Part shown: positions 33,144 to 37,556 of the stretch, piece by piece | Position numbering within the stretch: the stretch's first letter is position 1 | How the letters are laid out: each line of letters opens with the position of its first letter | Assembly (NCBI GenBank): GCA_027315315.1 | Contig: DAHUYG010000039.1 | Location: 1-64,000 of the forward strand | Source: Acidimicrobiaceae bacterium | Lineage (GTDB): Bacteria > Actinomycetota > Acidimicrobiia > Acidimicrobiales > RAAP-2 | Length of the DNA stretch: 64,000 bases | Direction of reading: 5' to 3' | Notes under the pieces: generated by a model | The model's input: the letters and a program-made list of their open reading frames with translations, nothing else | Told to the model about the DNA's origin: nothing | The model's database searches: none | Translations under genes and position numbers: made by a program

Positions 33144-33437
33144 TCACGCGTCGCCCACCCGCTCGGCCTCGATGAGATCGGCGATCTTCTGGCGGAGCGA
33201 ATCGGGCACGTGGTCCTTGCAACGGTCGGCGATGACCCGGCGCAGCTCGGTCTCGAAGCCAGCCGCGCCGGCGCACGGACCGCAGTAGTCGAGGTGGTCG
33301 GCGATCTGGGTCCGGCGCTCGTCGGTGAGCTCGCCGTCGAGGTAGTGGTAGAGCTGGTGGATCGCCGAGCCACAGTCGACCTGTGCCGCCCCGAAGAGGG
33401 GATCGTGCGAATCCATCCGATCGTGACCTTCGCTCAT
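33144..33437 (-). CDS. rsrA: zinc-containing anti-sigma factor, RsrA type
   Basis: A 97-residue ZAS-family protein. The redox-zinc motif is HLDYCGPC (His48, Cys52, Cys55), with an upstream Cys22 in QVDCGSAIH. In Streptomyces RsrA, disulfide formation between such cysteines frees SigR under thiol stress. The ATG overlaps the sigma-factor stop as ATGA, fixing start and partner. The pair implies a mycothiol-type thiol-stress circuit. Confidence 0.92.
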
Positions 33438-34012
33438 TCGGACCGCCCCGGTGCGGAACTCACCAAGCCCCGTGACTCGGCGAAGTCGTGCAACGCCTTC
33501 TGCAGGGCCCTTCTTCCCCGGTGGATCCGGCTCATCACCGTGCCGATGGGCACGTCGGTGATCTCGGCGATCTCCTTGTAGGAGAACCCCTCGACGTCGG
33601 CCAGGAGGACGGCGATCCGGAAGGCGTCGGGCAGCGACTCGATCGCCGACTTCACCTCGTCGTCGGTGAAGCTGGCGAGAGCCTCCTCCTCGGCGCTCCG
33701 GCTCGAGGCGCCGTTGGCCGGCGACAGGCGCTTGTAGAGGTAGAGGTCCTCCACGTCCTCGACGTCGGCGACCTCGGGCCGGCGCTTCGCCGCCCGGTAC
33801 GAGTTGATGTAGGTATTGGTGAGGATGCGGTACAGCCACGCCCGCAGGTTCGTCCCCTCGGTGAAGCCCCCGAACCCCCGATAGGCGCGCAGGTAGGTCT
33901 CCTGGACGAGGTCCTCGGCGTCGCTCGGATTGCGCGTCATGCGCAGCGCCGCGCTGTACAGCGCCGGCATGTGCTCCATGGCGAGCTCGGTGAAACGAGC
34001 CTGATCGGCCAT
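33434..34012 (-). CDS. sigR: ECF sigma factor, SigR/SigH type
   Basis: A 192-residue ECF sigma factor. Region 2 spans about residues 12-80, with [17 protein letters not shown] and [18 protein letters not shown]. Region 4 has [17 protein letters not shown] and [18 protein letters not shown]. The length, the short linker and the coupled RsrA support SigR/SigH. Typical targets are thioredoxin, mycothiol and protein-quality-control genes. I found no GGAAT/GTT autoregulatory promoter directly upstream. Confidence 0.93.
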
Positions 34013-34079: not shown

Positions 34080-34925
34080 ATGACCCCATCGGAATCCCGT
34101 GTCAGCGGCGGCCCCCACGGTCCCACCGGCCTGGTCGAACGGGACGGGGCCGACGTCGCCACCTGGGGCATCTTCGAGGGTCGGGGGCTCGAGGCGGTGG
34201 TCACGACCCGGGACGGCGGCGTCTCGGAGGGGCCGTTCGCCTCGCTCAACCTGGCGCTCCACGTGGGCGACGAACCCGACCGGGTGCTCGAGAACCGGAG
34301 GCGCGCCCTCTCGCTCCTCGGGGCCGGGCTCGAGGAACTGATCGTCGCCGAGCAGGTCCACGGAGCCCACGTCTCGGTGGTCGGGGCGGCGGAGCGCTCA
34401 CGCGGGGCGCGCTCGACGGCCGACGCGATCGGGGCGACCGACGCGCTCGTCACGAGCGAGGGGGGCGTCGTCGTCTCGATCCTGGTCGCCGACTGCGCTC
34501 CGGTCGCGCTCTTCGACCCCGCATCGCGGGTCCTTGGCTGCGCGCACGCGGGATGGCGCGGCGCGACGGGGGGCGTCATCGAGGCGACGATCGGCGCGAT
34601 GGCCGCGCTCGGGGCCCGGCCGGGCCGCGTGCTCGCCGGCATCGGCCCCTGCGTCGGCGAGCACGCCTACGAGGTCGGGGGCGAGGTCCTGGACGCGGCC
34701 CGACGCCATCTCGGTGCCGCGGGGCCCTGGGCGAGGCCGGGGCGCGCCGGGCACTTTTGGTTCGACCTCGCCGGGTATCTCGAGGTCCTCCTCCAGCGCG
34801 CCGGGGTCGCGGCCGGGCACATCGAACGCTCGGCACTCGAGACCGGCCCGCCCGGGCCGTTCTTCAGCGCGCGGGCCGAGGGAACCTGCGGCCGTTTCGG
34901 ACTGCTGGCCCGGATCGAACCGTGA
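34080..34925 (+). CDS. pgeF: peptidoglycan editing factor PgeF / YfiH-YlmD family
   Basis: A 281-residue member of the multicopper-oxidase-like laccase (YfiH) family. VAEQVHGAHV, VADCAPVALFD and CAHAGWRGATGG hold the His/Cys zinc ligands. GIGPCVGEHAYEVG and the C-terminal GTCGRFGLLARI complete the pattern. E. coli PgeF cleaves wrongly made UDP-MurNAc-L-Ser; other members act on purine nucleosides. The stop overlaps murL as GTGA. That neighbourhood favours the cell-wall editing role. Confidence 0.9.
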   Translation: MTPSESRVSGGPHGPTGLVERDGADVATWGIFEGRGLEAVVTTRDGGVSEGPFASLNLALHVGDEPDRVLENRRRALSLLGAGLEELIVAEQVHGAHVSVVGAAERSRGARSTADAIGATDALVTSEGGVVVSILVADCAPVALFDPASRVLGCAHAGWRGATGGVIEATIGAMAALGARPGRVLAGIGPCVGEHAYEVGGEVLDAARRHLGAAGPWARPGRAGHFWFDLAGYLEVLLQRAGVAAGHIERSALETGPPGPFFSARAEGTCGRFGLLARIEP

Positions 34926-36238
34926 GCGGGCCGTCCTTCCGCTACGCCGGCCACGAGCTCGACGCGTCCGACGGCGTGCTCAGGTGCCGCTACGCGCTCG
35001 GCGACCGGTCCTTCGCCGAGGTCCTCGAGCTCGGTGAGGGCGACTGGGACACCCCCGCCGCTATCGAGGCGGCCCGGCTCGTCTACCTGCTGGCCGCCGT
35101 CTCGTACTACAAGACGGCGGCGCCCCGTCGCGTCGAGCTCGACGTCGCGCTGCGCCCGGCCGAGCGCGACGCGCTCGTTGAGCACTACGTGCGCGGCCTC
35201 GGCGAGTTCGCCCACCACAACGGCATCGACCTCGGACGCGTCGAGTTCGCAGCGGAGACCCGCGACGCGCCCGGCGCCGACTACGTGCCGCGCACCGCCG
35301 CCCCGCTCGTCCCCTTCGGCGGGGGCATCGACTCGATCGTGACCGTCGAGTCGCTCAAGGGGCGCCACCCGGGCGCGACCCTCTTCGTGGTCGAGCCCCA
35401 CACCGAGCCCTTCGCCGCGATCGAGGGCGTCGTCCCCATCACCGGGCTCCCCGTCGCCCGGGTGCGCCGGAGCATCGACCCCCAGCTCTTCGAGGACCCC
35501 GCGATCTCGGGCTTCTTGCAGGGCCACGTGCCGGTGACCGGGATCATCACCGCGCTCGCCACCCTCGTCGCGATCGGGCGGGGCCTCGACGCGGTGGTGA
35601 TGTCCAACGAGTGGTCGGCGTCCGTCGGCAACCTGGTGGTCGGGGGTCGGGTCGTCAATCACCAGTACTCGAAGAGCCAGGACTTCGAGGAGCGCTTCGC
35701 CCGGATGGTGCGCGACGCCTTGGGCGACCGCATCCGCGTCTTCTCCTTTCTCCGCCCCTACAGCGAGCTGTGGGTGGCCGAGCGGTTCGCGCGCATGGGC
35801 GAGTACCACCGGGCCTTCCGCAGCTGCAACCGCGCGTTCCCGATCGACCCCGCCAGGCGCCTCGAGCACTGGTGCGGCGAGTGCGACAAGTGCTGCTTCA
35901 TCGACCTGGTGCTCGCCCCGTTCATGGCCCGGGTCGAGCTCGAGGCGGTGTTCGCCGGGCGCGAGCCGCTGGCTCGGCCCGAGCTCGCCGACCGCTTCGA
36001 GCGCCTGGTCGGCCTCTCGCCGGACCCGAAGCCCTTCGAGTGCGTGGGTGAGGTCGGCGAGTGCCGGGCCGCCGCCGCGCTCGGCGCGGTGCGCGGCGAC
36101 CGAAACGAGACGGCCCTGCTCCAGGCGCTGGCCGCCCGGCTGCCGGCCGTCTCCCCGGCCGAGGTCGCCATGCTCCTCGCACCCCATCGCCCGAACGACG
36201 TCCCCGATGACTACGCGACCGAGGATCAGCTGGTCTGA
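34922..36238 (+). CDS. murL: MurL-type UDP-MurNAc-L-Ala-L-Glu epimerase
   Basis: A 438-residue protein. An N-terminal domain is followed by the PP-loop-like PFGGGIDSIVTVE (131-143), then MSNEWSASVGN (228-238), NHQYSKSQDFEERFARMV and a Cys cluster WCGECDKCC (317-325). These fit the MurL family, which in Xanthomonas epimerises the terminal L-Glu of UDP-MurNAc-L-Ala-L-Glu to D-Glu in an ATP-dependent reaction. The GTG start is set by the GTGA overlap with pgeF. The following murD-type gene is the expected partner. Assignment rests on motif memory and context. Confidence 0.85.
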   Translation: MSGPSFRYAGHELDASDGVLRCRYALGDRSFAEVLELGEGDWDTPAAIEAARLVYLLAAVSYYKTAAPRRVELDVALRPAERDALVEHYVRGLGEFAHHNGIDLGRVEFAAETRDAPGADYVPRTAAPLVPFGGGIDSIVTVESLKGRHPGATLFVVEPHTEPFAAIEGVVPITGLPVARVRRSIDPQLFEDPAISGFLQGHVPVTGIITALATLVAIGRGLDAVVMSNEWSASVGNLVVGGRVVNHQYSKSQDFEERFARMVRDALGDRIRVFSFLRPYSELWVAERFARMGEYHRAFRSCNRAFPIDPARRLEHWCGECDKCCFIDLVLAPFMARVELEAVFAGREPLARPELADRFERLVGLSPDPKPFECVGEVGECRAAAALGAVRGDRNETALLQALAARLPAVSPAEVAMLLAPHRPNDVPDDYATEDQLV

Positions 36239-37556
36239 CCTCGCCGGGGCCACCGTCGGCGTGTGGGGCCTCGGCGTCGAAGGCGGGGCCAACCTGCGCA
36301 AGCTGCGCTCCCTCGGGGTAACCCCGGTCATCGCCGACGACCACCCGACCGTCGAGGACATAGACGGCATCCCGGTCCGCCCGACGGCGGCCGGGGGCTG
36401 GGACGCGCTCCAAGCGTGCGAGGTCGTGGTGAAGACGCCGGGCATCAGCCGCTACCGGCCCGAGGTCGTCGCGCTGGAGGACCACGGCGTGGCGGTCGTG
36501 GGCGGGCTCGGCCTCTGGCTGGAGGAGACCGACCGCACCAGGGTCGTCTGCGTCACGGGGACCAAGGGCAAGAGCACGACGACCTCGGTCCTCGGACACC
36601 TCCTCTCGGGTCTCGGGCGCCCCTGCCTCGTCGCGGGGAACATCGGCCGGCTCCCCTACGACCCCGAGGTGCCCGGCGGGCACGAGTTCACCGCGCTCGA
36701 GATCTCGAGCTTCCAGGCCACCGACCTCGCTTGCGCGCCACCGGTCGTCGCGCTGACCTCGCTACACCCCGACCACCTGGACTGGCACGGGAGCGTCGAG
36801 CGCTACTACGCCGACAAGCTCTCCATCTGCTCGCGGCCCGGCGCCGACCTCACCATTGCGAACGGGGAGAGCGCCGAGCTGCGCGCCGAGGCCCGGTGGC
36901 TGGGCGAACGCATCGAGTGGGTCGAGGACGGGCCCGCACCCTGGGCGGCGCCCCTCGGGCTGCCCGGGCGGCACAACCGGCTGAACGCACGGGTCGCCCG
37001 GGCCTGCATGGTGGCGCTCGGGATCGAGGAGGCCGACGACGAGGACGCGCTCGGTGCCGCGGCGCGAGGGTTCGTCGCGCTCGACAGCCGCCTGAGCGAG
37101 ATCGGATCGGTCGGCGGGGTGAGCTTCGTCGACGACAGCCTCTCGACGAACGCGCTCGCCACCATGGCGGCGCTCGACGCCTTCGCCGGCCGAGCGGTCG
37201 CCCTCATCGTGGGCGGCGCCGACCGGGGCATCGACTACGGACCCCTCGCCCGCCAGTTGGCCCGCCGCGCCGAGCCCACCTTGATCGTCACCCTGCCGGC
37301 CAACGGCCCGCGGATCCACCGGGCCATCGACGAGGCGAGGGGCACCGGGGGCGGCGGCGAGGTGCGCGACACGGGCGACCTCGACGCGGCCGTCGAGCTC
37401 GCCCTGCGCTGGGCGGCGCCCGGCAGCGTCGTGCTGCTCTCACCGGCCGCCGCCAGCTTCGGGCAGTTCAAGGACTACAAGGAGCGGGCCCGGGCGTTCC
37501 GGCGGGCCATGGAGGCGCACCGGCCCGACGACGACGAGGGGTCAGCCGCCGAGTAG
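36207..37556 (+). CDS. murD2: MurD2-type UDP-MurNAc-L-Ala-L-glutamate ligase
   Basis: A 449-residue Mur ligase. The N-terminal Rossmann part has VGVWGLGVEGGANLRKL. The central ATP site is VCVTGTKGKSTTTSVLGHL, with HPDHLDWHGSVERYYADK. The C-terminal domain has DDSLSTNALATMAAL and ALIVGGADRGIDYG. It is MurD-like, but beside murL it probably adds L-Glu rather than D-Glu. The ATG at 36207 overlaps murL by 32 bases. Its stop overlaps a convergent gene by 15 bases. Confidence 0.86.
   Translation: MTTRPRISWSDLAGATVGVWGLGVEGGANLRKLRSLGVTPVIADDHPTVEDIDGIPVRPTAAGGWDALQACEVVVKTPGISRYRPEVVALEDHGVAVVGGLGLWLEETDRTRVVCVTGTKGKSTTTSVLGHLLSGLGRPCLVAGNIGRLPYDPEVPGGHEFTALEISSFQATDLACAPPVVALTSLHPDHLDWHGSVERYYADKLSICSRPGADLTIANGESAELRAEARWLGERIEWVEDGPAPWAAPLGLPGRHNRLNARVARACMVALGIEEADDEDALGAAARGFVALDSRLSEIGSVGGVSFVDDSLSTNALATMAALDAFAGRAVALIVGGADRGIDYGPLARQLARRAEPTLIVTLPANGPRIHRAIDEARGTGGGGEVRDTGDLDAAVELALRWAAPGSVVLLSPAAASFGQFKDYKERARAFRRAMEAHRPDDDEGSAAE

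Follow-up and report, generated by a model that had tools for sequence, protein, structure and literature searches.

The stretch of DNA considered here, referred to as the window, comprises positions 1 to 64,000 (64,000 nucleotides) of contig DAHUYG010000039.1 from an Acidimicrobiaceae bacterium (assembly GCA_027315315.1). It contains three coupled genes, pgeF, murL and murD2, which are proposed to form a single operon for the D-glutamate (D-Glu) step of peptidoglycan precursor synthesis. The operon, an L-glutamate (L-Glu) route to D-Glu and PgeF as the cleaner of its precursors together make an explanation in which we place considerable confidence. It is built on the gene arrangement, gene content, conservation, the split of a PgeF subfamily, protein fold and residue signatures. 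The genes and their junctions are as follows.

34080..34925, + strand: pgeF (YfiH/DUF152), murL-type subfamily, 281 amino acids; ATG start at 34080, TGA stop at 34923-34925
34922..36238, + strand: murL; GTG start at 34922, stop at 36236-36238
36207..37556, + strand: Mur ligase gene (murD2); ATG start at 36207, stop at 37554-37556
34922..34925, + strand: GTGA overlap of the pgeF stop and the murL start, read from the sequence
36207..36238, + strand: 32-base overlap of the murL 3' end and the murD2 5' end, read from the sequence

The coupling of the three genes through these two overlaps had been described in the initial annotation and was confirmed, as were the motifs it listed, GGGIDS, NEWSAS and a Cys cluster in MurL and TGTKGKSTT in the ligase. 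Relatives show murL/murD2 overlaps of 26 and 8 bases. Each of the 13 genomes sampled from the family to which the bacterium belongs has the order pgeF-murL-murD2, and this recurrence argues that the arrangement is not due to chance. Family, class and phylum denote GTDB-based groupings throughout; the samples of named loci and of genomes overlap, two duplicates having been taken out, and the trees are quick searches.

The genome containing the window (2.47 Mb, 92% complete) was examined for other sources of D-Glu, gene absence being judged by family searches. It has no PF01177 protein and therefore no MurI. PF01177 proteins are also lacking in 10 of the 13 family members, and the remaining three have one of the aspartate-racemase type (TIGR00035); on this ground the matches in G099, G130 and G141 were rejected as hidden MurI. 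A TIGR00035 protein occurs at L045, L046 and L047, from three family members, and the window genome is without one. No D-amino-acid transaminase was found in the genome either: its sole Aminotran_4 protein, encoded beside a leuB-like gene, is IlvE (416 bits, versus 131 for the D-amino-acid transaminase model). In this genome the MurD cut-off is exceeded by the window ligase alone, and there is no second murD; the other MurD-like matches proved to be MurC (C16:20972), MurE (C16:16414), MurF (C15:11632) and a FolC-like gene. Genes for MurC, MurE and MurF and ddl-like genes are accompanied by no murI, D-amino-acid transaminase or second murD, the three genes for which a search had been proposed in the initial annotation.

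The division and cell wall (dcw) cluster of the genome, on contig 16, reads rsmH-ftsI-murE-mraY-ftsW-murG-murC-murB-ftsQ-ftsZ-yggS, without murD between mraY and ftsW and without pgeF between ftsZ and yggS. Relatives in the class that have no MurL carry mraY-murD-ftsW and ftsZ-pgeF-yggS in 17/17 checked. The combination that had been named as fatal to the initial annotation was a murI together with a canonical murD of the dcw cluster; both parts are absent, and the claim that D-Glu is made on the nucleotide precursor, not via free D-Glu, is well supported by gene content. MurL was detected in 17 of the 198 genomes of the class survey, comprising the 13 sampled family members and four others. 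Outside the family, the MurL genomes G009, G068 and G193 keep pgeF at its dcw place, and murD has gone from its place in G009 and G193, the two whose region reaches mraY. At L238 (G270, family f60), murL is flanked by mraY and murD2 inside the dcw cluster, possibly as an in-place swap. At L009 (1189-3886, - strand), murF lies outside the dcw stretch that was read, next to a D-Ala-D-Ala ligase-like gene; it scored 189 bits, under the curated cut-off.

The ligase exceeds the cut-off of the TIGR01087 murD model (264 bits against 212). In a quick tree with SH-aLRT support, a fully supported branch (100%) set 97/97 MurL-linked ligases apart from E. coli MurD and from 30 canonical class MurDs. Three of its positions correspond to residues studied in the literature (E. 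coli MurD in its published numbering, with the first Met not counted). The E. coli MurD and YfiH reference sequences were checked solely against published residue numbers, and MurD also against a PDB alignment.

37140..37142, + strand: codon of Leu312, E. coli K319; Leu or Ile in 96/97 MurL-linked ligases, Lys in 28/30 canonical MurDs of the class
37224..37226, + strand: codon of Arg340, E. coli K348 and Arg358 of X. oryzae MurD2; Arg in 96/97 MurL-linked ligases, Lys in 29/30 canonical MurDs
36771..36773, + strand: codon of Asp189, E. coli D182 and Glu197 of X. oryzae MurD2; Asp in 51/97 MurL-linked ligases

It has been reported that the K319T substitution enables E. coli MurD to accept L-Glu, that R358K helps to turn X. 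oryzae MurD2 toward D-Glu, and that E197D alters the stereospecificity of the latter enzyme (PMC8788868). Since Asp occurs at the third position in 51/97 MurL-linked ligases, Glu there is no marker of the group, and Glu197 was rejected as a universal sign of MurD2. The window ligase is predicted from these residues to be a MurD2 with specificity for L-Glu.

The window proteins resemble MurD2/MurL of X. oryzae (XOO_1320/XOO_1319) in several respects: the enzymes are homologous, murL and murD2 are adjacent, MurI and D-amino-acid transaminase are lacking on both sides, and the ligases share Arg and a non-Lys residue at two positions. They differ in that the window MurL belongs to a separate clade, here called clade A (100% branch), that the ligase has Asp and not Glu197, and that pgeF is joined in front, with no canonical pgeF in the dcw cluster. 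The MurD2/MurL pathway has already been published, actinobacteria included (PMC8788868), and enzymes from Micromonospora and Salinispora have also been assayed (PMC8788868, PMC5808125). A canonical route, in which free D-Glu of a source that escaped detection would be the substrate of the ligase and the MurL homologue would have another function, might be favoured by the Asp at the Glu197 position and by the divergence of clade-A MurLs from the assayed ones. Against it stand the lack of a D-amino-acid transaminase in the genome and of MurI in both the genome and the sampled family, the replacement of Lys319 and Lys348 as in MurL-linked ligases, and the overlap or fusion of murL with murD in 17/17 class genomes that have MurL; we regard it as highly improbable. 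The MurD2/MurL route is very likely used by this bacterium, to judge from the missing MurI, transaminase and second murD together with the grouping and substitutions of the ligase; the gene content is observed, and the activity would follow from it.

The joining of the two genes is closest in two genomes of family f24, where MurL and MurD2 are fused as a single open frame of 856-865 amino acids, lending independent support to the two proteins working together. The fusions lie at L029 (1912-4509, G166; 865 amino acids) and L032 (4451-7021, - strand, G009; 856 amino acids), and the fused ligases of f24 have Cys at the Asp/Glu stereospecificity position. MurL-MurD pairs on long branches were also observed at L112 and L127; their hosts, a Candidatus Roizmanbacteria member and an unclassified bacterium, fall outside the bacterial groups that the reviews consulted list for the MurD2/MurL pathway.

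MurL has been described as a protein without known domains that uses ATP and forms AMP (PMC5808125, PMC8788868). The window MurL matches NF041275 over the whole protein (316 bits, E 2.8e-94; residues 5-430 against positions 9-438 of 447). The score is below the cut-off of 700 of this Xanthomonadales-specific model, which no scanned actinobacterial genome reached, and the protein is therefore filed as a MurL homologue and not as that equivalog. Two of its motifs are informative.

35318..35335, + strand: PP-loop GGGIDS of MurL; its GGG and DS do not vary among 22 diverse MurLs; aligns with QueC SGGxDS (hhalign)
35825..35893, + strand: C302-x15-C318-x2-C321-x2-C324 of MurL; four Cys invariant; aligns with the QueC zinc motif (hhalign)

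An AlphaFold model of MurL from a 17-sequence alignment (pLDDT 91.7, pTM 0.93) had as its top structural matches QatC (Z 19.3 over 314 residues, root-mean-square deviation 3.6), QueC (Z 14.4) and Cap9 (Z 13.3), other PP-loop enzymes lying well under these at Z of about 10. When 106 MurLs were compared with 20 QueCs by hhalign (E 3.5e-5, probability 45%), the PP-loop and the cysteine motif were both aligned, the latter as SC...CGxCxKC in MurL and SCY...CGxCxxC in QueC, whose motif is defined in PMC13329287; control comparisons of MurL with MurD and PgeF profiles gave no match. Going by the model, MurL is a QueC/QatC-fold PP-loop enzyme. With QueC, QatC and Cap9, PF06508-type PP-loop enzymes (PMC13279940, PMC13329287), it shares the fold over most of its length, the PP-loop, the CGxC cysteine motif and ATP-dependent chemistry. 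It differs in having GGGxDS, here GGGIDS, and not SGGxDS, a cysteine spacing of C(x)15CxxCxxC and not C(x)8CxxCxxC, an identity of 11-18%, and, by analogy with its homologues, a nucleotide-peptide substrate and an epimer as product. No sequence relative of MurL was found in the PDB, and the Pfam scan at E 0.01 gave no family, PF06508 included; MurL is hence considered QueC-like in fold and not filed as a PF06508 member. Its ATP-to-AMP chemistry would be explained directly by QueC-type adenylation of a carboxylate. MurL and epimerases go unmentioned in two 2026 papers on the QueC family.

The association of pgeF with murL was surveyed across 106 MurLs, over 576 MurL loci being known. The gene stands directly before murL, in the same direction, in 34 cases, convergently after murD2 in two and divergently in one. 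These pgeF-linked MurLs make up 37/45 of clade A and 0/61 of the clade with the Xanthomonas enzymes, so that the adjacency, whose survey had been proposed earlier, is conserved and limited to one divergent actinobacterial MurL clade. The murL-type PgeF occurs in 12 of 396 scanned genomes of the phylum, all 12 being among the 27 with MurL; scores for the subfamily are bimodal, 12 lying above 280 bits and the next best at 240. In G494 it stands away from murL, the MurL there being of the other clade, and G561 and G562 each carry it on a different contig from murL. Such unlinked copies suggest that the tie between PgeF and MurL is more than positional; because the assemblies are fragmented, contamination is possible in all three.

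The PgeF protein matches Pfam PF02578 (DUF152/Cu-oxidase_4) with 234 bits (E 2e-69) and TIGR00726 with 120 bits, under the cut-off of 141. It is filed as a diverged member of its family and not as that equivalog, and like MurL, which also scores below its NCBIfam cut-off, it is thus divergent. In an alignment with E. coli YfiH, a UDP-MurNAc-L-Ser amidase of the same family (MurNAc, N-acetylmuramic acid; PMC8844914), it keeps Q69, H71, D89, C107, H124, W127, R128, R228 and R235 (YfiH numbering), and hence the Cys-His-Asp triad, the oxyanion residues and the Gln69/Arg235 amino-acid pocket.

34494..34496, + strand: codon of catalytic Cys139 (E. coli C107); YfiH alignment, residue roles from PMC8844914
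34869..34871, + strand: codon of Ala264 (E. coli Tyr227); YfiH alignment, the aromatic residue being lost here

Compared with the E. coli enzyme, Tyr227 is replaced by Ala (by Asp in most subfamily members), Thr233 by Cys and Met236 by Phe, and the window PgeF is encoded with murL. Tyr227 of YfiH stacks on the MurNAc ring (PMC8844914). The position is Asp in 30/37 and Ala in 4/37 murL-linked PgeFs; it is aromatic in 19/19 dcw PgeFs of the class with a residue there and in 24/24 other PgeFs read. The residue is Ala in the window PgeF and Phe in its nearest relative. The change at the sugar-stacking position implies that the substrate may differ from that of E. coli YfiH. In the tree, murL-linked PgeFs form a separate subfamily outside the dcw PgeFs of the class, for which reason a mere relocation of pgeF from the dcw cluster was rejected. 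From the sequences, the murL-type PgeF is judged to have replaced the native dcw pgeF. At L062 (5112-5912, - strand), pgeF is divergent from murL and its product has His at 227 with the murL-type Cys233 and Phe236; it is placed apart in the tree, with uncertain placement, and could be an intermediate.

Two other views of PgeF have to be weighed. It may be a mere neighbour in an otherwise unaltered pathway, the peptidoglycan genes having moved once as a cassette whose order was inherited, with PgeF doing ordinary Ser/Gly editing that has no connection with the L-Glu route. A single origin within one MurL clade, the usual location of pgeF among cell-wall genes, the unchanged catalytic residues and Gln69 specificity residue, and some clade-A genomes that get by with an ordinary PgeF all fit this reading, which we rate somewhat below even. 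It accounts poorly for a distinct subfamily confined to MurL genomes, for its retention through co-directional, convergent and divergent orientations and, in G494, away from murL, for the changed MurNAc-stacking position, and for the loss of the native dcw pgeF in favour of the murL-type protein. PgeF may, conversely, be a specialised editor within the L-Glu route. This route creates a new dead-end dipeptide, E. coli YfiH weakly cleaves dipeptide precursors (27-89 versus 274,084 nmol/min/mg; PMC8844914), and the pocket residue that has changed is located at the sugar; Gln69 and Arg235, which contact the first amino acid, are nevertheless unchanged, and the window PgeF has Ala, not Asp, at 227. 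We consider this reading rather unlikely. That the subfamily was converted into a quality-control hydrolase dedicated to the route, with a substrate unlike that of E. coli YfiH and probably a route-specific precursor, is likewise possible if doubtful.

The preferred explanation, in which PgeF cleans the precursors of the L-Glu route, has several points against it. At 92% completeness a missing gene could sit in a gap, which is made unlikely by the agreement of the family survey. The window ligase has Asp at the Glu197 position, clade-A MurLs are far from the assayed ones, and the hhalign probability is just 45% despite its E value. Seven clade-A MurLs have no adjoining pgeF, and G433, G558 and G559 have an ordinary PgeF alone; the partnership is therefore not obligatory.

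On the 5' side, the operon is flanked by a divergent ECF-type sigma-factor gene whose start is 67 bp upstream, and on the 3' side by a convergent gene that overlaps the last 15 bp of the ligase gene with its own 3' end. The divergent stretch at 33144-34012 (- strand) holds this sigma-70 family gene and an anti-sigma-like gene, which has a His/Cys motif and looks SigR/RsrA-like by eye.

Activities known from the literature for homologous MurD2, MurL and YfiH would, by analogy, be those of the three window proteins, with PgeF serving the L-Glu route. MurD2 would attach L-Glu, which would be flipped in place to D-Glu. For this, MurL would adenylate the alpha-carboxylate of the Glu with ATP, yielding AMP; because adenylation would acidify the alpha-proton, the residue could be epimerised to D and then released, and MurE would carry on. 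The co-transcribed PgeF, whose subfamily travels with clade-A MurL, would hydrolyse the amide that joins the first residue to MurNAc, removing unwanted nucleotide precursors either ahead of the L-Glu step or while it proceeds. Keeping nucleotide precursors clean for the L-Glu route is most likely its role, with UDP-MurNAc-L-Ser still its substrate or another compound in its place. The initial annotation had tied PgeF to this route through proofreading of the first stem residue: the link itself gains genetic support from the conserved order and from a subfamily exclusive to MurL genomes, and the coupling to proofreading stands as a prediction. Its view that such a link was undescribed agrees with our search, as no paper was found naming YfiH with MurL and the PgeF papers found were not MurL papers. 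The pgeF-murL-murD2 partnership across one actinobacterial branch appears to be new, no published description having been found.

These results provide MurL with a fold and, in QueC-like adenylation, a chemical rationale, so that its open mechanism can now be tested. Two ligase positions (K319 and K348) may predict which ligases use L-Glu. The role of PgeF becomes directly testable as well, and an editing step is suggested for an alternative D-Glu route that has been proposed as a narrow-spectrum drug target.

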